Assembly (NCBI GenBank): GCA_016235545.1
Contig: JACRKB010000046.1
Span: 1 to 55,935 of the forward strand
Direction: 5' to 3'
Source of the DNA: Verrucomicrobiota bacterium
GTDB taxonomy: Bacteria > Verrucomicrobiota > Verrucomicrobiia > Limisphaerales > SXTU01
DNA: 55,935 bases
A program made the translations under genes and the position numbers. The notes under the pieces were generated by a model. It was not told the origin of the DNA and searched no databases. It worked only from the letters and a program-made list of their open reading frames with translations. Position 1 is the first letter of the stretch; every line of letters starts with the position of its first letter. Below are positions 4,118 through 50,425 of the stretch, one piece after another.

Positions 4118-4285
4118 TTGAACGCAAACTCCGAAGCTCAGCCGCGAAAGGGCGCAAAGAAAGAAGTCAGAAGACAGAAGTCAGAATGGGTGGAAGCGCA
4201 AGCTCGGTCTCCTGGCTTCTGGCTTCTGACTCCATTCCTTTGCGCCCTTTCGCGGCCATTCCATTTCGGAGTTTGGATTGAAACC
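4118..4285. repeat. Long imperfect hairpin repeat, family 1, copy 1
   Basis: The left arm holds CCGCGAAAGGGCGCAAAGAA and then AGAAGTCAGAA-type 8-nt units; the right arm holds CTGACTCCATTCC and then TTTGCGCCCTTTCGCGG. The arms are inverted repeats of about 60-70 nt. The copy at 5083-5253 is nearly identical over its whole length. More diverged copies are at 11151-11322, 15097-15274 and 30286-30431. The element sits between the kinase and its regulator and could attenuate or stabilise the transcript. Confidence 0.8.
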
Positions 4286-5082: not shown

Positions 5083-5253
5083 TTTGAACTCGAAATCCGA
5101 AGTTCAGCCGCGAAAGGGCGCAAAGAAAGAAGTCAGAAGTCAGAATGCGTGGAAGCGCAAGCTCGGTCTCCTGACTTCTGGCCTCTGACTCCATTCCTCT
5201 GCGCTCTTTGCGCCCTTTCGCGGCCATTCCATTTCGGAGTTCGGGTTGAAACC
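5083..5253. repeat. Long imperfect hairpin repeat, family 1, copy 2
   Basis: Nearly identical to 4118-4285. The left arm has GTTCAGCCGCGAAAGGGCGC, then AGAAGTCAGAAGTCAGAA (tandem 8-nt unit AGAAGTCA); the right arm has CTGACTTCTGGCCTCTGACT, then GCGCCCTTTCGCGGCC. The high identity of two copies 1 kb apart points to recent copying. Confidence 0.8.
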
Positions 5254-5974: not shown

Positions 5975-6172
5975 CGGAACCATTCGATTGAAATTCAACG
6001 CAAAGGCGCAAAGACGCAAAGAAAACCACTGGCGAACAGGGGCAGAGCAGCGGGCGATATGGGCGCACCGAACAGTGGAATCCAAAGCGGCTGGAAACAG
6101 TTTTCAAAAACCCTGCGTCTTTGCGTCCTTGCGCCTTTGCGTCAAAGGTCTTCTGCATGGACTCGGAATAGG
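5975..6172. repeat. Inverted repeat, family 2 (CGCAAAGGCGCAAAGACG)
   Basis: The left end CCGGAACCATTCGATTGAAA leads into AACGCAAAGGCGCAAAGACG; the right arm has GCGTCTTTGCGTCCTTGCGC, then TTTGCGTCAAAGG and CTGCATGGA. Related elements are at 25307-25380 (left arm only) and 42098-42280. Translation gives the well-known spurious peptides of the type NAKAQRRKE and ASLRLCVK, so these ORFs should not be annotated. Confidence 0.75.
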
Positions 6173-9200: not shown

Positions 9201-10763
9201 CAGGACATCACCGCCCACAAGCAGGCGGAGGAATCCCTGCGACAGGCCGAGGCGAAGTTCCGCGCGATCTTTGACAACGCGGTGGAAGGCATCGTCCAGA
9301 CAGACCCCTCGGGCCGCATCATCACCGCCAATCCCACCATGGCCCGGCTGCTGGGCTTCGAGACGCCGGAGGCGCTCCTCGCCGCCGCCCTCAACATGGA
9401 CCGGGATGTTTATGCAAAATCGGGGGATCAAACGTCTCTGCTGCGGCGGGCGCGGACGGGTGAGCGGGACTTCATCCAATGCCAGTTCAAGCGCCGGGAC
9501 GGGCAGTTGATCTGGATTTCCATGAATCTCCGCGTCGTGCGGGACGAGCGGGGCGAGGCGCAGTTCTTCGAGGGCACCTGCGTGGACATCACCGAACACA
9601 AGCAGATGGAGGAGCAGTTGCGGCAGTCGCAAAAAATGGAGGCCATCGGCCTGCTCGCCGGCGGCATCGCGCATGACTTCAACAACATCCTGGGAGCCAT
9701 CCTGGGCAACGTGGAGCTCATCCGCCTGATGCCCGAGAACGACCCGGGCCGCCAGGAAAGCCTGGATGCAATCCTGAGCGCAAGCCAGCGCGCGGCAGAT
9801 CTGGTGAAGCAGATTCTGGCCTTCAGCCGGCGGCACGAGCAGGAACGCGAGCCGATCCAGCTGCAAATCGTCATCCGCGAGGCGCTCAAGCTCCTGCGAG
9901 CCACCGTGCCGGCGGAAATAGTGTTCAAGACGAACCTGGCCCGGACGCGCACCGTGCTGGCGGACGCCTCGCAGATCCACCAGATCGTCATGAACCTCTG
10001 CACCAACGCCGCGCACGCCATGAAGGACCGTCCGGGCGTCCTCCAAGTCGAGCTGTCCGAGATGGAGCTGGACGCGGACTTCGCGCGGACACACACCGAC
10101 ATTTCGCCGGGCCGTTATGTGCGGCTGGAGGTGACGGACACCGGCTCGGGCATGGACCGCGCCACGGTGGCGCGGATGTTTGAACCCTTTTTCACCACCA
10201 AGGCGCCCGGCGAGGGCACAGGCCTGGGGCTGTCCGTGGTCCACGGCATCGTCAAGAGCCACGATGGAGCCATCACCGTCCAAAGCGAGCCCGGCGTTGG
10301 CACCACGTTCCACCTGTATTTCCCCGCGTTCGAGGTGGAGGCCGCAGAGCCTGTGGGCGAGTCGTCTCCGCTGCCCTGCGGCAACGGGGAGCACATCCTC
10401 TTCGTGGATGACGAGGAGCCGCTGGCCCGGCTGGGCGAGACAATCCTCAAACGCCTCAACTACCGGGTCACCGCCATCACCAACTCCACGGAAGCGCTCG
10501 CCCTCTTCCTCGAGAAGCCCGACCAGTTCGATCTCGTCATCACCGACCTGAACATGCCGGTGATGAATGGCGTGAATTTCGCCCGCCAGCTTTTGCTCAT
10601 CCGCCCGCAGGTGGCGATAATCCTCACCACTGGTTACAGCGCCACTCTGACCCCTGAAGTGGCGCGAGAGATGGGCTTCCGGACAATGCTGCCCAAGCCA
10701 AGCAACTTCCGCATACTTGGAGAAACCGTGCAACGCGTCCTGACGGAGGCCAACCCAGACTGA
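6288..10763 (+). CDS. Membrane hybrid histidine kinase with seven PAS domains
   Basis: A 1491-aa hybrid kinase. The N-terminus has two membrane segments, about 12-31 and 178-204, enclosing an extracytoplasmic helical region of about 145 residues that resembles CHASE3 (by topology and length, not by a firm motif). Seven PAS domains begin near 223, 351, 477, 605, 731, 863 and 989, most ending in the D(I/L)T(E/G/A)xKQAE linker. HisKA at about 1114-1180 has the H-box GGIAHDFNN; HATPase_c spans about 1224-1342 (N-box MNLCTNAAHAM, GTGLGLSVVHGIV); the C-terminal receiver about 1367-1488 has the acceptor Asp in VITDLNMPVMNG. A receiver gene follows after 4 nt and is probably co-transcribed. The catalytic block and receiver are close paralogues of those in the kinase at 11467. 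Confidence 0.95.
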   Translation: MKTFLHRSLRAGPVVMAVVALLLVFLTNHAVQGLLDDNRWVVRTIQARDGAENIRQLLLEESSARFAWRTTGEDAHRLVMEQAGRAAIRNLASVRALTSDSPAQQARLRELEPLVRQRLEVSARRDTLPRQTNSPTSVGRELQREGIRLNGEISAVVAAIVLEEDALLASRTSASERSALITVGIVATVSVLSIVGILGAAGMLRRELQVREQAETSLRQGEERFRSLLESAPDAMVVADEAGRIVLVNAQVEKLFGWTRAALVGQKVEVLVPDHLKAAHVAQREGYAADRSARPMGAGRELNVRRRDGSEFPAEISLSPLRTDEGMLVTAAIRDLTGRKQAEQALHDSEARFHTLWEISQDAMRLLDEKGILITVNEAFCRLVGLRREELEGQPFTVAYAGDRDPAELMRRYQERFRERRIAAQEERRMVLQGGRTVDLEMTSTFIELPGRPTLLLGVLRDITERKQAEQLVRESAAAVSMIFRASPAAISISTVESGRLIEMNERCCEFYGYQREELVGRTIPELNLWAEPEARLAAVQRVVQEGKIHNLEARHRRKSGEERDVLVSMELIDLAGETEPVLIAMFTDITERKQAEAHGRASAALYHSLVDTIPLAVFRKDMAGRLVFGNTRFCHALGRPWEQLAGRTDRDLFPPELAAKYTGDDARMLASGANLELDEENLGADGVTHHVHVIKSPVRNSEGEIIGVQGIFEDVTARHQAEAALRESERRFRQLVHTLPVAVYACDAGGHITLYNEAAVALWGREPEMGRDLWCGAWKTFNPDGSPLALEDSPMAVTLRGGRPVRGREMVIERPDGTRAHVLPHPVATRDITGTLTGGVNMLVDLTERLKAGEALARERRLLRTVIDNLPGYIFAKDAAGRYTVSNLAHGRLLKVASEAELLGKTAFDFFPPETAQRFAEDDRGLLQTGQPVLDREECSEVNGARAWHQLSKMPLRDEHGGIVGLVGIKQDITAHKQAEESLRQAEAKFRAIFDNAVEGIVQTDPSGRIITANPTMARLLGFETPEALLAAALNMDRDVYAKSGDQTSLLRRARTGERDFIQCQFKRRDGQLIWISMNLRVVRDERGEAQFFEGTCVDITEHKQMEEQLRQSQKMEAIGLLAGGIAHDFNNILGAILGNVELIRLMPENDPGRQESLDAILSASQRAADLVKQILAFSRRHEQEREPIQLQIVIREALKLLRATVPAEIVFKTNLARTRTVLADASQIHQIVMNLCTNAAHAMKDRPGVLQVELSEMELDADFARTHTDISPGRYVRLEVTDTGSGMDRATVARMFEPFFTTKAPGEGTGLGLSVVHGIVKSHDGAITVQSEPGVGTTFHLYFPAFEVEAAEPVGESSPLPCGNGEHILFVDDEEPLARLGETILKRLNYRVTAITNSTEALALFLEKPDQFDLVITDLNMPVMNGVNFARQLLLIRPQVAIILTTGYSATLTPEVAREMGFRTMLPKPSNFRILGETVQRVLTEANPD

Positions 10764-11154: not shown

Positions 11155-11322
11155 GCCCGAACTCCGAAATGGAATGGCCGCAAGAAACGCAAAGAGACGC
11201 AAAGAGAAAAGATTGCGGCCAAGGCTGCGCGCAGTGAAACAGTTCCGGGCAATGCGATGAAAGACCCTGTCTTCTTTGCGTCTTCTTGCGTGCTTTGCGG
11301 CCAACTTCGGAAATCGGGTTGA
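11151..11322. repeat. Long imperfect hairpin repeat, family 1, diverged copy 3
   Basis: Begins CCCGAACTCCGAAATGGAAT, then GGCCGCAAGAAACGCAAAG; the right half has TTTGCGTCTTCTTGCGTGC, then TTTGCGGCCAACTTCGGAAA. Compared with 4118 and 5083 the inner sequence is replaced by CGCAAAGAGACGCAAAGAG units. A GAGAGTTGAA unit follows at 11321-11330 and is mirrored by TTCAACTCTC at about 11368. It could act as the terminator of the kinase/receiver transcript, although no U-tract is present. Confidence 0.65.
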
Positions 11323-11466
11323 GAGTTGAAGCGTGTGAACCACGGCCTCGTTGTTCAGGTTCCCCTTTCAACTCTCTCCTCTCAACTCCCAACTCCGCCC
11401 CCTCGTCTCACAAAATATTTGCTCCCCACAGGGCGCGGGGAATAGGGTGACCACCGTCCCCGACAT

Positions 11467-33450: not shown

Positions 33451-34905
33451 TCACGCCATCAACTCGCGTATGACCTGCCCGCCGAACTGCGAGAGCTGCT
33501 TGAAGCGGCCGCCGTGGAAGTAGGTGAGTTTGTTGTCATCCAAGCCCAGCAGGTTCAGCAGCGTGACGTGCACGTCGCGGATGTGGTGGACGTGCGCGAC
33601 GGCCTTGTCGCCCAGTTCGTCGGTCGCGCCGATGGTGTGGCCGGCCTTCACGCCGCCGCCGGCGAACCACATCGTCATCGCGTGCGGGTTGTGGTCGCGG
33701 CCGTAGGCGGTGCCGCCGCGCACGCCGTTGTCGGGCGAGCGGCCGAACTCGCCGCAGCAGACGACCAGTGTGGAGTCGAGCAGGCCGCGCTGCTTGAGGT
33801 CGGCGAGGAGCGCGGCGATGGGCTGGTCCACCTGGCGGACAAGGTTGCCGTGCGCGCGCTCGATGTAGTCGTGGCTGTCCCAGGTGCCGGCGTAGAGCTG
33901 CACGAAGCGCACGCCGCGCTCGACGAGCCGCCGCGCAAGCAGGCATTTGCGCCCGAAGGCGTCCGTCGGTTCCGCGCCGATGCCATAACTGGCCTTGAGC
34001 TGCGCGTTTTCCTTGTCGAAGTCGAGGATGCCGGGCACTTCCATCTGCATGCGGAAGGCGAGTTCGTAGGCGTCCATGCGCGCGGCGAGCTCGTCGTGCT
34101 GCGGGTGGGCGTCTCGGTGCGCGGAGTTGAGCTTGGCGAGCAGGTCGAGGTTCTGGCGCTGGTGCTCTGGCGTGATGCCCGGCGGCGGCGTGAGGTCGAG
34201 GATGGGCGAGCCTTTCGCGCGCAGCGGCGTGCCTTGGAAATGCGCGGGGAGAAAACCGTTGCCCCAGTTCGCCGCGCCGCCCTGCGGGTAGCTCACCTCC
34301 GGCAGCACGATGAAGCCCGGCAGGTTTTGGTTCATCGAGCCGAGGCCGTAGGTCACCCACGAACCGATGGCCGGGTCGCCGCCGAAGCGGTTGCCGGTGT
34401 TCATCTGATACATCGCGGTCGGGTGGTTCACCGAATCCACCTGTGCGCCGCGGAAGAAGCAGAGGTTGTCGGCGACCTTCGCGAGGTGCTCCCAGTTCTC
34501 CGCGATGTCCGCTCCGCTCTGGCCGGCCTTGCGGAACTTGAACGGGCTTTGCACGTAGTAGCGTTTCCCGCTCTCCATCGCGGACTTCATCTTGCCCTCA
34601 CGGACAAATTCCTTCAGGTGCATCTCTACGAGCTTCGGCTTCGGGTCGAAGGTGTCGATGTGAGACGGCCCGCCTTCCATCATGAGGAAGATGCAGCGCG
34701 TGGCCTTCGCGGGGAGGTGGACCGGTTTCGGCGCGAGCGGCGAAACGGGTTTCGAGTTTTGGGTTTGGAGTTTGGAGTTCACCTCCGCAGCCAGCAGCGA
34801 ACTGAACGCCACACTGCCGAGGCTTGCGCCGAGCGAATACACGAAGTCCCGGCGAGTCGGTGCGTGCAAGGCGCGGCGACCGGCGCAGGGAAAAAACGGC
34901 TGCAT
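33451..34905 (-). CDS. DUF1501 protein, Tat-exported (sulfatase-fold)
   Basis: A 484-aa protein with a twin-arginine leader (APTRRDFVYSLGASLGSVAF). The mature part has DUF1501 signatures: CIFLMMEGGPSHIDTFDPKP, SWVTYGLGSMNQNLPGFIVL, WDSHDYIERAHGN, VVCCGEFGRSP and GRDHNPHAMTMWFAGGGVK. DUF1501 is an alkaline-phosphatase/sulfatase-like fold of unknown substrate, normally encoded next to a PSD1 protein. Here the PSD1 partner at 35580 is separated from it by an opposite-strand gene. Residues about 40-55, between leader and domain, are encoded by tandem GAGTTTGG-type units (see repeat at 34741). The ATG at 34905 is chosen because it begins the leader. Confidence 0.92.
   Translation of the reverse strand: MQPFFPCAGRRALHAPTRRDFVYSLGASLGSVAFSSLLAAEVNSKLQTQNSKPVSPLAPKPVHLPAKATRCIFLMMEGGPSHIDTFDPKPKLVEMHLKEFVREGKMKSAMESGKRYYVQSPFKFRKAGQSGADIAENWEHLAKVADNLCFFRGAQVDSVNHPTAMYQMNTGNRFGGDPAIGSWVTYGLGSMNQNLPGFIVLPEVSYPQGGAANWGNGFLPAHFQGTPLRAKGSPILDLTPPPGITPEHQRQNLDLLAKLNSAHRDAHPQHDELAARMDAYELAFRMQMEVPGILDFDKENAQLKASYGIGAEPTDAFGRKCLLARRLVERGVRFVQLYAGTWDSHDYIERAHGNLVRQVDQPIAALLADLKQRGLLDSTLVVCCGEFGRSPDNGVRGGTAYGRDHNPHAMTMWFAGGGVKAGHTIGATDELGDKAVAHVHHIRDVHVTLLNLLGLDDNKLTYFHGGRFKQLSQFGGQVIRELMA
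34741..34785. repeat. Tandem GGGTTTGGAGTTTGGAGTT units inside the DUF1501 gene
   Basis: The 7-nt unit GGAGTTT/GGGTTT is repeated in frame just after the Tat leader and gives peptide NSKLQTQNSKP. Such NSKLQTPNSK strings are the usual translation of an intergenic repeat. Confidence 0.65.
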
Positions 34906-35579: not shown

Positions 35580-38555
35580 TCAGTAAACGTAGGCGAACTC
35601 GTTCGCGTTCAGCAGCACGAGGCAGACCTCGGCGAGTCCGCGCAACTCTGGCGAGGCGCCGGCAGGTTGGAGGTCCGGGACGAAGTCGGCGGCGGCTTCG
35701 AGCGGCTCGGTGAACTTGAACTTCTCGCCGGTGTTTTCCTCCACGGCCTCGCGCGTGACAGAGCGCGGCGGCGCGGCCGTCTCGAACTTCAGCGTGCGAT
35801 GCCGCACCGTCATCGCGTCCCAGTGGGCAAGGCACGTCTTCAGCTCGTCCGGCTTGGGGGCGCGGTTGAACGCCAGTTGAAACGCACGCTCAATCACCGC
35901 CGGCCGCTGCCCGCTGGCCGCTGCCCGCTCCCGCAGCGCGCGGCTCGCAAACGCCAGCGCGCGGTCATACGTGGCCTTGCTGTTGAAGAGCGCGAAAACC
36001 TGCGGCGTGACGGTCGAGGCCTCGCGGGCTTCACAGCTCAGGTCGGGCGAGGGCGCGTTGAAGACTTCCATGAACGGGTCGCCGAGGCCGCGAATCTTCA
36101 GCGCGTAAAGGCTGCGCCGGTGGCGCTGCTCTGGCTTGGGCGAGGGCTGCCACGCCTCGGCGAACGTGCCCATGACCTGCCGCGGCTGGAGTGCGGCTTC
36201 GAGGTTCATCTCCGGCCGCACCGGGATGCCGCCGAGCGCGGGGTTCAGCTCGCCGGAGACGCGGAGCATGGCGTCGCGCAGTTCCTCGGCGGTGAGGCGG
36301 CGTGGGTTGAACAGAGAGTAATTAGTGATTAGTGAGTCAGTGCTTAGTTGGCTGGGTGACTTCGCGGCGCCCTTCGCTGACTGATTACTAATTACCTCCT
36401 CACTAATCACTGCCCCCCTCCGATACGCCTCGCTCGACATGATGAGCCGATGCATCGCCTTCACCGACCAGCCGCGCTCGACGAACGTCGCGGCGAGCCA
36501 GTTGAGCAACTCGGGATGCGTGGGTTTCTTGCCGGTCGCGCCGAAGTTGTTCGGGTTGCCCGCGAGCGCCTGGCCGAAATGCCATTGCCAGATGCGGTTG
36601 ACCATCACGCGCGCGGTGAGCGGGTTGTCCGGGGCGGCAATCCAGTTGGCGAGGTCAAGGCGTCGGCCCGTGATGGAGTTCGTGATGCGTGATGCGTGAT
36701 GCGTGATTGCCGAAAGCGCGCCGGGTGCGACCTTCGCCGCCGGTGAGAACGGGTCGCCGCCGGTGAGGATGCATGTCTCCTCAAGCTCCCCAATTGCCAC
36801 GCGGTTCGCCGGCATCCGCATCGGGTTCACGACGGCCTTCACCTCCGGCGTGCGCCCGCCATAGACGGCGAAGGCGACCGGCTCGAAGCGCTCCAGCTCC
36901 CACTTGAGGCGCTCCAGTCCCTTGCGCGCGATGCGCTCGTGGCCGTAGTCCTCGGGCGTGAAGCCGATGAGCTTCGGCGGAATCTGCGCCTCGGGGAGGC
37001 CGCGTCGCGTAAGAACGGCGCGCACCTCGGAGTAACCGGCTTCGCGTCCGCGCTTGTCCGTCTTGCCGGTGACTTCCTCTACGGCCTGCTCAAACACTTT
37101 CGCGTCGAGCTTTCGTTCCGCATACCATGCACGCGCAGCGGCGAGGGACTTGTCATCGAGTCGCTTGAGCTGCGCGAGGTAGAACTCGCGGCGCTGCTCG
37201 AGATTTTTTTTCTCCTCGAAGCCGTCGATGTTCTCGCCGGGCAGGAACTCCGCCGGACGGTCGGCCATCTGCGTGGTGCTGAAGACGGCTTGGAAGGAGT
37301 AGTAATCGCGCGTGGGAACGGGGTCGAACTTGTGGTCGTGACAACGCGCGCACTGGAGCGGGTGCGCTAGGAAGACCTGCCCGACGCTGTCCGTCACGTC
37401 GTCGAGGAAGCGCTGGCGCGCGACCTTGGCGACCTCCATGCCGGTGAGTTCCCACGGACCCATGCGCAGGAAGCCGGTGGCGACCAGAAGTTGAGAGTCG
37501 AGAGTTGAGAGTTGAGAGGCTTCCGCGAGCTCGTCGCCGGCGAGTTGCTCGCGGATGAACTGGTCGTAGGGCTTGTCGCTGTTGAAGGCGCGCACCACGT
37601 AGTCGCGGTAACGCCATGTGCTGCCGCGCGCGTAGTCGTTCGCGAAGCCGCTGGAGTCGGCGTAGCGGACGACATCGAGCCAGTGGCGGCCCCAGTGCTC
37701 GCCGTAGTGCGGCGAGGCGAGCAATCGGTCCACCAGCTTTGCGAACGCCTTGCCATCGCTGTCCTTGTCCTGCACGAACGCAGAGACTTCCTCCGGCGTG
37801 GGCGGCAGGCCGAGCAGGTCGAACGTAGCGCGGCGGATGAGCGTGCGCCGGTCGGCGAGCGGGGCGGGGCGGGCGTTCGCAGTAGCGAGCTTCTGGTTGA
37901 TAAAGCCGTCAATCGGGTTCGCGGGGAGAGTGTTCAGTATCCAGTGTTCAGTTTTCAGTGGGGACGGCGCGCCGGACGCGGCGGGCTGCGCGCTTCGGGA
38001 CTGAATACTCACTGCCGGAACCGCCGGTTTCCTCACCGGCTGATACGCCCACAGATTCTCCGGCTTGTAGCGGCGGTTCGTCCACTCGGCGGAGAGGCCG
38101 CCGCTGGTCTTCACTGTGATGCCGTCCTCGGCGGACCACTTGTCGGCGTTGGCCTTGGAAATCTCTGCTAGCCGATTCGCATCCGGCCAAGGCGCGCCGC
38201 CAGTAATCCACTCCTTCACCCAAGCAAGCTGCTCCTTCGTGAGCTTGTCGTTTTCCTTCGGGGGCATCGCAGCCCAGTTCTCGTCCACGTGCTCGCGTGT
38301 GACGGCGAGCCAGAGCGGGCTGGCATCAGGCTTGCCGGGGACGACCGACGGCTTCTCGCTCTCGCCGCCCTTGAGCAGGCCGGCGCGCGTCCTCATGTCG
38401 AGGCCGCCCTTGATTTTCCTCGAGTCATCGCCGTGGCAGGCGAGGCACTTCTCCTTGAAGAGCGGCTGGATGCGGCGGGCAAACAGTTCCTCGGCTGACG
38501 CGAGGGGCGGCAGAATCAAAACGAGAAACAGAGTGGCGGCGGTGCGCGGGTTCAT
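35580..38555 (-). CDS. PSD1-type protein (cytochrome c + DUF1549 + DUF1553)
   Basis: A 991-aa exported protein with signal peptide about 1-21. The PSCyt1 module at about 22-110 has CLACH at 37-41 and GLDMRTRAGLLKGGESEKPS. DUF1549 follows (RRATFDLLGLPPTPEEV, GRHWLDVVRYADSSGFAND), then DUF1553 (DWIAAPDNPLTARVMVNRIW type text, FNPRRLTAEELRDAML, LGDPFMEVFNAPSPDLSCEA). PVC genomes pair it with DUF1501 and sulfatases; a role in polysaccharide use is suspected. Five or more in-frame stretches are low-complexity repeats rather than protein family sequence, at about residues 182-209, 343-355, 614-627, 712-749 and 873-885. The ATG at 38555 is chosen because it starts the signal peptide. It lies 89 nt behind the sulfatase. 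Confidence 0.92.
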   Translation of the reverse strand: MNPRTAATLFLVLILPPLASAEELFARRIQPLFKEKCLACHGDDSRKIKGGLDMRTRAGLLKGGESEKPSVVPGKPDASPLWLAVTREHVDENWAAMPPKENDKLTKEQLAWVKEWITGGAPWPDANRLAEISKANADKWSAEDGITVKTSGGLSAEWTNRRYKPENLWAYQPVRKPAVPAVSIQSRSAQPAASGAPSPLKTEHWILNTLPANPIDGFINQKLATANARPAPLADRRTLIRRATFDLLGLPPTPEEVSAFVQDKDSDGKAFAKLVDRLLASPHYGEHWGRHWLDVVRYADSSGFANDYARGSTWRYRDYVVRAFNSDKPYDQFIREQLAGDELAEASQLSTLDSQLLVATGFLRMGPWELTGMEVAKVARQRFLDDVTDSVGQVFLAHPLQCARCHDHKFDPVPTRDYYSFQAVFSTTQMADRPAEFLPGENIDGFEEKKNLEQRREFYLAQLKRLDDKSLAAARAWYAERKLDAKVFEQAVEEVTGKTDKRGREAGYSEVRAVLTRRGLPEAQIPPKLIGFTPEDYGHERIARKGLERLKWELERFEPVAFAVYGGRTPEVKAVVNPMRMPANRVAIGELEETCILTGGDPFSPAAKVAPGALSAITHHASRITNSITGRRLDLANWIAAPDNPLTARVMVNRIWQWHFGQALAGNPNNFGATGKKPTHPELLNWLAATFVERGWSVKAMHRLIMSSEAYRRGAVISEEVISNQSAKGAAKSPSQLSTDSLITNYSLFNPRRLTAEELRDAMLRVSGELNPALGGIPVRPEMNLEAALQPRQVMGTFAEAWQPSPKPEQRHRRSLYALKIRGLGDPFMEVFNAPSPDLSCEAREASTVTPQVFALFNSKATYDRALAFASRALRERAAASGQRPAVIERAFQLAFNRAPKPDELKTCLAHWDAMTVRHRTLKFETAAPPRSVTREAVEENTGEKFKFTEPLEAAADFVPDLQPAGASPELRGLAEVCLVLLNANEFAYVY
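35900..35935. repeat. In-frame GCCGCTGCCCGCTG tandem units in PSD1
   Basis: CCGCTGCCCGCTGGCCGCTG followed by CCCGCTC: near-tandem repetition of an approximately 8-9 nt unit, encoding RERAAASGQRPAVIE. Confidence 0.5.
36308..36420. repeat. Inverted AGTGATTAGTGATTAG cassette inside PSD1
   Basis: The left arm has GTAATTAGTGATTAGTGAGT; the right arm has ACTGATTACTAATTACC, then CTCACTAATCACTG, the inverted form of the same 8-nt unit. The AT-rich cassette stands out from the GC-rich gene and is translated in frame (EEVISNQSAKG ... LITNYSLFNPRRL), just before the conserved FNPRRLTAEE of DUF1553. Confidence 0.85.
36675..36712. repeat. Tandem GATGCGT units inside PSD1
   Basis: GTGATGCGTGATGCGTGATG then CGTGATT: four 7-nt units, in frame, encoding ITHHASRITNSITG. 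Confidence 0.85.
37490..37525. repeat. Tandem GAGAGTT units inside PSD1
   Basis: GTTGAGAGTCGAGAGTTGAG then AGTTGAGAG: 7-nt units, in frame, encoding SQLSTLDSQLLV. The same unit occurs between genes at 11321 and 43849. Confidence 0.85.
37928..38010. repeat. GTGTTCAGT units inside PSD1
   Basis: GTGTTCAGTATCCAGTGTTC then AGTTTTCAGTGG: in-frame units encoding KTEHWILNTLP, within a longer low-complexity linker. The same unit forms the intergenic hairpin at 53132-53201. Confidence 0.8.
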
Positions 38556-42097: not shown

Positions 42098-42280
42098 GAA
42101 CGATGCAGTTGAAATCCGATGGCTCCGCTTCAACGCAGCAACGCAGAGGACGCAAAGATGCGCGGAGAAGCCACCGGCGAGGAGCACCAAATGGTGAACA
42201 CAAACCCCTTCGCTCAACTCTCCGTTCCTCTGCGTCTCTGCGTTAAAGGGAGCGCATCTTCAACTGCATGGATTCGGTCA
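42098..42280. repeat. Inverted repeat, family 2, full copy
   Basis: The left end CCGGAACGATGCAGTTGAAA leads into CAACGCAGAGGACGCAAAGA; the right arm has CTCTGCGTCTCTGCGTTAAA and the end TTCAACTGCATGGATTCGG. The terminal inverted repeat (CCGGAAC-ATGCAGTTGAA) is best preserved in this copy. Confidence 0.75.
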
Positions 42281-47811: not shown

Positions 47812-47818
47812 GAGCGAC

Positions 47819-47895
47819 GTGTTCCGTGCTTCGTGTTCCGTGATTTAGTCCGAGCGCGTTCTGCCGTAGTCACGCAGCACGGAGCACGGAACACG
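47819..47895. repeat. Hairpin of CGTGTTCCGTGCTTCGTG units
   Basis: The left arm CGTGTTCCGTGCTTCGTGTT (47819 on) and the right arm CACGCAGCACGGAGCACGGA (ending near 47895) pair over about 25 nt with three mismatches; each arm is itself made of 8-nt GTTCCGTG/GCTCCGTG units. The same cassette appears at 49759-49838 at the start of trmB. Confidence 0.75.
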
Positions 47896-49735: not shown

Positions 49736-50425
49736 ATGGCAACCGAAGCAGACTCGAACGTGCTCCGTGCTCCGTGTTCCGTGAGCATGGCAGGGACGCG
49801 CTCGAACCTAATCACGGAGCACGGAACACGGAGCACGCTCCTCCACGAGTTCCGCACCATCCTCCAGCCGCTCACGCTCGCCGACCACTTCCCCACGCCC
49901 CAGCCGCTCGAAGTCGAACTCGGCTGCGGCGACGGCTCCTTCATCGTTGAGTGGGCGCAGCGGAATCCGGGCCGGAACTTCCTCGGCGTCGAGCGCTTGC
50001 TGGGCCGCATCCGCAAACCGGACAAGCGAGGCCGTCGAGCGGGTTTGACCAACCTCAGCCTCGTGCGAATCGAAATCGGCTACTTCCTCGAATACCTCCT
50101 GCCGCCCGCAAGCGCCGACGCCATCCACGTCTATTTCCCCGACCCGTGGCCGAAGGTGAAGCACGCGCGCCATCGCCTCATCAGCGAGCGCTTCACCGCA
50201 CTGGCCCGGCGCGCGCTCAAGCCCGGCGGCGTGGTGCATCTGCGCACCGACCATGTGGATTACTTTGCGCAGATGCTCGCCGTCTTCCGAGCGGATGCAG
50301 CCTTCACCGAGGTGGAAACGCCGGCCGATCTGGCCGCCGTGACGACGGACTTCGAGCGGGAGTTCAACGCCAGGGGAATTCCCACGAACCGCAGTTCGTG
50401 GCGAATCATGGAACGAGGATTTTGA
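49736..50425 (+). CDS. trmB: tRNA (guanine-N7-)-methyltransferase
   Basis: A 229-aa (if begun at 49736) SAM-dependent enzyme making m7G46 in tRNA. Motifs: LEVELGCGDGSFIVEWA (SAM site), FLGVERLLGRIRK, IHVYFPDPWPKVKHARHRL (the family hallmark FPDPWPK) and LRTDHVDYF. The start is uncertain: the ATGs at 49736 and 49787 both lie in or next to an inverted repeat, so the first 15-35 residues (VLRAPCSVSMAGTRSNLITE) derive from repeat DNA. Conserved sequence begins near LHEFRTIL. Confidence 0.93.
   Translation: MATEADSNVLRAPCSVSMAGTRSNLITEHGTRSTLLHEFRTILQPLTLADHFPTPQPLEVELGCGDGSFIVEWAQRNPGRNFLGVERLLGRIRKPDKRGRRAGLTNLSLVRIEIGYFLEYLLPPASADAIHVYFPDPWPKVKHARHRLISERFTALARRALKPGGVVHLRTDHVDYFAQMLAVFRADAAFTEVETPADLAAVTTDFEREFNARGIPTNRSSWRIMERGF
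49759..49838. repeat. Inverted GCTCCGTG cassette at the start of trmB
   Basis: The left arm CGTGCTCCGTGCTCCGTGTT and right arm CACGGAGCACGGAACACGGA are inverted copies made of 8-nt units, as at 47819-47895. The cassette is read through in frame with trmB. Confidence 0.8.

Follow-up and report, generated by a model that had tools for sequence, protein, structure and literature searches.

Heptamer cassettes within a PSCyt1–PSD1 gene of a Verrucomicrobiota bacterium and their probable kinship with S23/IVP elements

How might a single intact protein gene come to hold five arrays of short tandem repeats, each of a different unit, and still keep its reading frame? The question is raised by a gene encoding PSCyt1, PSCyt2/DUF1549 and PSD1/DUF1553 domains on contig JACRKB010000046.1 of a Verrucomicrobiota bacterium, whose 55,935 nucleotides make up the whole stretch analysed here (the window). 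The draft genome to which the window belongs, as contig C284, comprises 5.01 Mb in 311 contigs and is labelled G000; other G numbers denote relatives' genomes, among which G006 is the closest congener, and L numbers denote DNA stretches or loci. The answer that we favour, with a probability of roughly two in three for the best explanation as a whole (its observed plus its inferred parts), is that the five cassettes are gene-less members of a family of elements that have heptamer arms, resemble intervening sequences (IVS) and, in their full form, carry an S23/IVP gene.

Five cassettes in one gene

A first-pass annotation made from the letters alone had described five repeat sites in this gene, with units of 7–9 nt. 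The sites are real, since Tandem Repeats Finder recovers all of them (at 35897–35934 in two overlapping rows, 36317–36348, 36681–36707, 37489–37518 and 37929–37960) in a gene that is open over its 991 codons; the unit, however, is 7 nt at every site, with some of the rows giving 14. The gene and its cassettes are as follows:

35583–38555, minus strand: host gene, PSCyt1, PSCyt2/DUF1549 and PSD1/DUF1553 (Pfam), an open frame of 991 codons
35897–35934, minus strand: cassette E, four AGCGGSC-type heptamers
36308–36420, minus strand: cassette D, inverted arms of TTAGTGA-class heptamers with a GC-rich centre (hairpin)
36681–36707, minus strand: cassette C, CATCACG repeated 3.9 times, 100% matching
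37489–37518, minus strand: cassette B, TCTCAAC (GTTGAGA) repeated 4.3 times
37928–38010, minus strand: cassette A, TGAACAC/CAGTGTT-class heptamers on either side of a GC-rich centre

Inverted arms are present only in cassettes D and A (in A as judged by eye), the other three cassettes each being a single array. Cassette D, as RNA, folds better than its shuffles (z −3.8).

The annotation had also placed the cassettes between conserved blocks with the frame kept. An alignment of 15 sequences of the window gene, in which the homologues have 59–85% identity, agrees with this for all five places, and the same holds for six further genes in G000 and G006, described below. Arrays were counted in 14 of these sequences (L023, with a run of N, was dropped). 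At a score of at least 8, ten period-7 arrays lie within the five sites, five of them the window's own and five from relatives, and one lies in the remaining gene, i.e., 1.32 per kb in the sites versus 0.03 per kb elsewhere; the corresponding counts are 4 and 1 for period 6 and 2 and 0 for period 5.

Interval lengths at the cassette sites, counted in codons, vary by multiples of three. Cassette E, which is GC-rich and the least distinctive of the five, adds 12 nt to its interval relative to 12 of 13 homologues, and cassette B adds 18 nt relative to 9 of 13. Cassette D, longer by 39 nt than the interval in 10 of 13 homologues, stands in place of an ancestral segment of about 22 residues. The interval of cassette C (36675–36712) measures 90 nt versus 93 in seven homologues; with this net change of −3 nt, an ancestral segment has been replaced rather than a pure insertion made. 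Cassette A is the longest among 14 variants of its linker. The expectation that the cassettes would appear as gaps in homologues was therefore borne out in part: relatives have other units or none, whereas some sites are replacements (C) and the places are often shared with G006. The G006 homologue (85% identity) has AATCGGC-class arrays at sites A, C and E, the homologue in G027, from another family, has GAAACTC heptamers at site A, and that in G039 has a GCGGAAC array at site D; at A and D, palindromes of other kinds or degenerate repeats can be seen by eye in several further homologues. Only three arrays were found in 38 named homologues, two in one Verrucomicrobiaceae gene and one in a Prosthecobacter gene.

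In the predicted structure of the host protein (from 13 sequences; mean predicted local distance difference test score, pLDDT, of 72.5), pLDDT is below 50 in cassette A at residues 186–208 and in cassette D at residues 729–740, the latter with short predicted helices. Cassette C lies in coil, and cassettes B and E each span an interhelical loop, overlapping the helix ends.

Matches to the window gene, paralogues included, occur in 55 of the 58 genomes of the order, its own genome counted; many genomes each have about 30 matches or more to the window protein, which are DUF1549/DUF1553 paralogues. Another copy of the gene (L068, from 18051) has an array at the same linker as site A.

Heptamer arrays and S23 genes

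The sample of the host genome amounts to 455,335 bases, i.e., the window and 20 stretches of about 20 kb, on contigs chosen from matches to a GTGATTA-like pair, so that every one of them holds such a pair somewhere. With homopolymer arrays left out, this sample has, at a score of at least 14, 30 arrays at period 7, nine at period 14 (repeating period 7) and no more than eight at each of the remaining periods between 4 and 16; an order-2 Markov simulation, run once, gave none at any period. At a cut of 12, there are 47 arrays in 29 unit classes. Pairs of arrays that share a class and lie more than 2 kb apart number 24, versus an average of 1.0 and no more than 4 when the units are shuffled by letter. 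The claim that the unit types of the gene recur elsewhere is thus upheld, and the units have been passed between places or are strongly favoured, rather than having merely grown from random seeds. Among 21 intergenic arrays, 14 are accompanied by a reverse-complement partner no more than 150 nt away; the same is true of 7 of 26 predicted coding arrays, and 5 of 141 control places have such a partner. Since 7 is not a multiple of 3, an array of at least three units presents its unit in every frame, and the unit must therefore be stop-free on the strand used; the sense consensus is stop-free in 23 of the 26 predicted coding arrays. In the relatives' DNA sampled for this count, arrays number from 2.5 to 14.7 per 100 kb, versus 10.3 in the host, and two short stretches, of 10 and 8 kb, have none.

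Four syntenic blocks of G000 and G006 were compared, in which 19 arrays were comparable (six without an orthologous interval were dropped). G006 has an array at 12 of these 19 places, nine of another unit class and three of the same class, and at 4 of 281 control places where G000 has none. Eight coding array places fall in six genes, namely DUF58, SpoIIM (where the array is at the C-terminal end), HhH-GPD/NUDIX, DUF1501 (where it is missing in G006) and two more of the DUF1549/DUF1553 type, and the frames are open in both genomes through or beside the arrays. When the lengths of coding arrays were tested from DNA anchors, three of the values (−1, +1 and −23) were not multiples of three; since the protein comparison shows open frames, these are taken as anchor errors, which is unproven. 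The hairpin in the DUF58 gene (L077) is built of GTTCTGA arms in G000, where it folds at −53.1 kcal/mol (z −4.8), and of GTTCAAA arms in G006, where it folds at −37.8 kcal/mol (given without z): place and pairing are kept and the unit is changed, and it is on both arms that the units differ at a fixed place.

The two genomes also differ in gene content within stretch L077: at one place G006 has nothing but a hairpin of another unit, and G000 has there a pair of inverted arrays that enclose an additional gene. The additional gene encodes an S23/IVP four-helix-bundle protein (PF05635), among whose relatives the only solved structure found is that of XCC0516 from Xanthomonas campestris (2gsc). 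The first-pass annotation, made from the letters alone, could not see this connection. The host genome has seven S23 genes, of which six, arguably seven (by eye), have flanking inverted heptamer arrays, each of its own unit.

The arms were measured as the best ungapped inverted match between the 350-nt flanks, a score of at least 16 being positive. Positive arms were found at 32 of 36 S23 loci (7 of the host and 29 best-of-genome in the order), at 35 of 40 further loci picked from the genome-search list (34 of these 40 being from the genus) and at 21 of 29 best-of-genome loci of the phylum sample, hence at 88 of 105 loci of the phylum overall. Control genes of the host sample were positive in 13 of 294 cases, of which three are themselves S23 genes and one shares an S23 arm. 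Identity within the arms is 0.61 at lag 7, 0.59 at lag 14 and 0.25–0.35 at other lags, versus 0.26 at lag 7 in control segments; the best lag is 7 in 68 of the 88 and 8 in 15. S23 genes are, then, mostly bounded by inverted heptamer arms. Both neighbours are co-directional with the S23 gene at 32 of 33, 36 of 36 and, in the phylum sample, 21 of 23 loci with both called, and with 169 of 292 ordinary genes. S23 genes above the family cut-off occur in 165 of 240 sampled genomes of the phylum, and this frequency could bear on the structure of many operons and the annotation of many genes.

Is the unit of the arms tied to the S23 protein between them? The comparison covered 68 loci, after dropping those with a score below 16, without 6-of-7 repeats or with short flanks, as well as L196. 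Pairs of S23 proteins from different sites with 60–75% identity share their unit within one mismatch in 36 of 38 cases (L282 with L294 is among the two that disagree), and in the identity bins below 50% the share is 10–17%. For all pairs with at least 50% identity it is 74 of 144, versus a permutation mean of 26.7 and maximum of 41; these pairs are not independent, as there is one large GTTGAGA/GTTGATA clade, with several smaller groups in agreement.

The units of the host's own S23 genes were then compared with its 44 other arrays, which are the 47 minus three S23 arms (the host locus L174 has no countable unit). Ten of the 44 match exactly. Random S23 sets from the genus give a mean of 3.8, with 1 in 2000 reaching 10, and sets from other families and from the phylum give means of 1.4 and 0.6, with 0 in 2000 reaching it. 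Related S23 proteins thus share a unit, and the units of the host's S23 genes match its gene-less arrays. Among the cassettes, the unit of B is exactly that of the arms of the S23 elements L171, L182, L187, L191 and L245, and the class of A is that of the arms of L214 (exact) and L205 (one mismatch).

One junction between genes has S23 with arms in G000, G003 and G010, lacks S23 in G001, G002, G007, G008 and G009 (the genes being only a few bases apart in G002 and G008) and has, in G046, an array of the same unit without S23. The S23 element is therefore absent at the same junction in several relatives, and the coding copies elsewhere are in frame. A second place, which holds S23 in G000 and G006, has in G002 (L247, G002:C311, 3027–3633, minus strand) HEPN and nucleotidyltransferase genes (Pfam) adjoining a CGTGTTC-class arm, and the end of the neighbouring gene is partly duplicated there. 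This pair beside an arm suggests that S23 may not be the sole cargo.

The association extends to named plasmids, for which a protein search with two S23 queries gave 26 and 21 records, nearly all cyanobacterial. Of the 14 among these 47 matches that were taken for the arm measure (cyanobacteria and Azospirillum), 13 have inverted arms with a score of at least 16, and in 9 of the 13 the lag-7 identity is at least 0.64. Only 2 of 83 control genes of two such plasmids were positive, and both are insertion sequence (IS) transposases, so the measure does find the terminal repeats of known mobile elements. One plasmid S23 gene lies two genes ahead of a TrbI/VirB10 gene. Plasmid C of Trichormus variabilis ATCC 29413 is among those with an S23 element. 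On three cyanobacterial plasmids (L315, L322 and L324), S23 genes were seen within runs of CRISPR-Cas genes: between cas6 and cas4 (with cas1d next in L324) or between cas10 and a Cmr3-family gene.

An intervening-sequence-like family and its alternatives

On the explanation that we favour, a full element would run from the end of one gene through an array of one 7-nt unit, an S23/IVP open reading frame (ORF) and the inverted array to the start of the next gene. In the phylum, such full elements sit between genes, almost always directed as both neighbours, and resemble the S23-bearing IVS of 23S rRNA, though placed in protein operons. S23 may recognise its own heptamer arms as hairpin RNA or DNA and promote their copying or retention, so that the arms would be both recognition site and stem. 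Slippage, together with template switching from arm to arm, could alter the copy number, homogenise the units and change both arms jointly. Within genes, selection would keep only in-frame, stop-free copies in tolerant segments, from which new linkers could arise. Spread of the elements in operons, with movement and a role for S23 in it, is what we infer from these patterns.

The repeat-spreading interpretation of the first-pass annotation is thus partly supported. Selection for in-frame insertion, which it named beside tolerance, would not be evident from survivors, the only copies that are visible, and what it took for many unrelated units are classes that track the S23/IVP lineages.

Several observations weigh against our explanation. 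Within the gene, three of the five cassettes have no inverted arm, cassette A as RNA folds no better than shuffles (z −0.5), and the best matches of cassettes C, D and E to S23 arms have two mismatches in 14. The G012 homologue (L017) has two in-frame stops, one of them inside a palindromic insert at site A, which would be explained either by failure of the gene to tolerate that insert or by an error in the draft sequence. In the synteny test, G006 has no array at 7 of the 19 places, a single S23 element supplies, with its two arms, two of the nine places of different class, and a GC-only repeat accounts for one of the three of the same class. As to the S23 loci, 17 of the 105 in the phylum are under the threshold, all were compared with control genes of the host genome only, and many are shared insertions of congeners and so not independent. 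When one mismatch is allowed, the contrast of the own-unit comparison is weaker (26 of 44 for the host's set versus 17.6 for the genus, 16.4 for other families and 11.1 for the phylum), and 90 of 2000 genus sets reach 26; the host's set also has slightly more units (20 versus 16.8). On the plasmids, 4 of the 13 positive loci have a lag-7 identity below 0.5, and, of the 13 S23 genes annotated there, 2 run opposite to the genes on either side. Finally, no transposition has been observed, and a clean target-site duplication was looked for at the S23-empty junction and not established.

A simple alternative would be ordinary replication slippage, in which the polymerase slips on 7 nt, local seeds grow and S23 merely lodges in the hairpins. 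Among long simple repeats, those with a 7-nt unit are the most frequent in most prokaryotes, and the contact length of the polymerase has been proposed as the cause (Mrazek 2007, as cited in PMC4679880), and some sites, such as B, resemble by eye proto-repeats in homologues. We regard slippage alone as unlikely, however, because it does not account for unit classes common to distant loci far beyond chance, for the inverted partners that intergenic arrays have nearby more often than control places do (14 of 21 versus 5 of 141, within 150 nt), or for the way in which the S23 lineage predicts the unit and the host's S23 units predict its gene-less arrays. Another possibility deserves real weight, doubtful as it is: the stem could be a functional RNA element, kept for cutting by RNase III or for S23 binding in the operon mRNA, its spread being secondary. 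This would fit the sense orientation inside gene runs, the retention of stems while units switch and the excision by RNase III of the Coxiella 23S IVS within its stem, at the first tandem heptamer (PMC4990558, in the portion available); it fits poorly with copies in genes that would cut the mRNA of their own host protein, with places that are empty in close relatives and with the poor folding of cassette A.

The hairpin shape and the three Y1_Tnp genes in the host genome might instead recall miniature elements related to repetitive extragenic palindromes (REP) and their associated tyrosine transposases (RAYT), or derived from IS, moved by a Y1 or other transposase. Yet the gene between the arms is S23 and not a transposase, the units are many, the arms are arrays rather than fixed ends and no conserved loop was seen by eye, so that such an origin is very improbable. 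Empty junctions, as an insertion sequence or miniature element might leave in relatives, were seen, with no clear target-site duplication at them. As for an artefact of assembly or contamination in a metagenome-derived genome, a draft in 311 contigs could invite the suspicion. The phenomenon recurs, its frames coherent, in a large number of separate genome assemblies as well as on complete named plasmids, which makes the probability of an artefact negligible. Lastly, the host genome (95% complete) has no match to the reverse transcriptase family RVT_1, an enzyme of this type being a feature of diversity-generating retroelements; this speaks against retro-homing by a resident enzyme. The S23 protein of L173 does match bAvd, below its cut-off, Avd being an S23 relative of diversity-generating retroelements.

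Among known systems, the short tandemly repeated repetitive (STRR) sequences of cyanobacteria and the degenerate heptamers of trnL introns form dispersed degenerate 7-nt arrays and hairpins, and we know of no tie between them and S23. Dispersed tandem 7-nt units are also what is found here; unlike in the known STRR accounts, the S23 genes of cyanobacterial plasmids are here bracketed by heptamer arrays. Rickettsia palindromic elements are palindromes of one or a few conserved families that are inserted in frame in genes. Insertion in frame is common to both; in place of a conserved palindrome family, there are here 29 classes among 47 arrays, and three of the five cassettes are one-armed.

The closest comparison is with the IVS of 23S rRNA. 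In Coxiella, RNase III removes the S23 IVS from 23S rRNA by cutting in a stem next to tandem heptamers, which precede the S23 ORF in numbers that vary between strains; four-helix bundles arranged in a pentameric ring make up the S23 of a Xanthomonas, and one view on record is that such IVS were mobile and needed the ORF for movement (PMC4990558). As in the IVS of Coxiella, and of Leptospira as cited in that text, the S23 ORF here lies inside a stem of terminal inverted repeats. The stem is present at 88 of 105 S23 loci of the phylum and at 13 of 14 on plasmids, and in the window only in cassettes D and A; the ORF in the loop is, for full elements, given by the construction of the search, and the window cassettes are gene-less. 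Unlike those IVS, which lie in 23S rRNA, the examined S23 loci are beside protein genes and the cassettes are in one, with gene-less copies inside genes, many copies and many units.

Dispersed heptamers have been described several times. TAACTGA heptamers occur sporadically in Beggiatoaceae, Cyanobacteria and Bacteroidetes, directly before start codons and in some ORFs, with one dominant unit in the main genome versus the 29 classes of our sample, and no link to S23 was found in the available part of that account (PMC4679880). GGGAATC of Xanthomonas and GGGGA(C/T)T of Nostoc lie between aligned ORFs, with some inverted pairs and some copies in ORFs; they are discussed as G-quadruplex formers, again with no S23 link found in what was accessible of the paper (PMC4692102). 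The heptanucleotide elements of Geobacter metallireducens, unlike those here, have one consensus and are read as regulatory RNA (PMC2700814, seen in part). Already in print, to judge from the portions of these articles at hand, are the status of heptamers as commonest long repeat and their presence at start codons, in genes and between ORFs (PMC4679880, PMC2700814 and PMC4692102), as well as S23 in rRNA IVS and heptamers beside one S23 ORF (PMC4990558). Two further papers, in their accessible sections, merely list four-helix-bundle genes as strain-specific (PMC8700078 and PMC11637426). Heptamer arms around S23 genes outside rRNA are not described in the literature searched, which was seen in part, subscription journals and preprints lying largely beyond the search. 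A general tie of dispersed heptamers to S23 genes is likewise not described there. The new result here is the association of the arrays with S23 genes, and there is a fair chance that the elements form a class of their own.

A broader proposal is more tentative and, in our estimate, falls somewhat short of even odds: S23/IVP proteins could be the missing partners of the dispersed heptamers of bacteria, within (semi-)selfish elements that have lineage-specific arrays as mirror-image arms, spread in operons and give rise to gene-less hairpins and in-frame linkers. Two old puzzles, the origin of dispersed heptamers in cyanobacteria and other bacteria and the role of S23/IVP proteins, would then merge. 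A route from repeat DNA to new protein linkers would also become visible, in that orthologous places stand at different stages: empty, with one unit or with another.

Other arrays and minor observations

Four more heptamer arrays of the window belong to the same survey:

4162–4229, strand not stated: gene-less hairpin AGAAGTC/GACTTCT, with a related copy at 5128–5179
34749–34779, strand not stated: GTTTSGA array inside the coding gene 33454–34905, its class kept in G006
47817–47895, strand not stated: gene-less intergenic hairpin of the CGTGTTC/GAACACG class
49759–49837, strand not stated: gene-less hairpin of the CGTGCTC/GAGCACG class, within a predicted ORF

At 5998–6143 and 42131–42243, the window also has facing 8-nt units, ACGCAAAG/TGCGTCTT and CAACGCAG/CTCTGCGT, respectively, which are an 8-nt sister of the heptamer elements. 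By eye, neither a conserved loop nor fixed element ends were seen among the hairpins. Local clustering of unit classes is weak, both in the host sample (6/33 versus 81/1037, p 0.045) and in G006 (6/25 versus 24/211, p 0.08).

Two ideas about the arrays were given up. A telomere-like fusion of arms was dropped for want of a general rule, the G/T-rich strand leading in 18 of 32 inverted pairs and trailing in 14. Gene-less arrays lie in co-directional gaps in 17 of 21 cases, versus 69% of intergenic bases, which was not convincing as a bias. Thirteen distant inverted array pairs enclose genes, among which S23 recurs and ordinary neighbours occur too; they were not used as evidence.

Stretch L077 (G000:C184) contains, at 9598–9745 and 11207–11350, an inverted pair of a repeat of about 140 nt that flanks a gene of 455 aa. 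This repeat is a high-copy palindromic element of another kind, with matches at dozens of places in G010 and fewer in G006, G001, G004 and G005.

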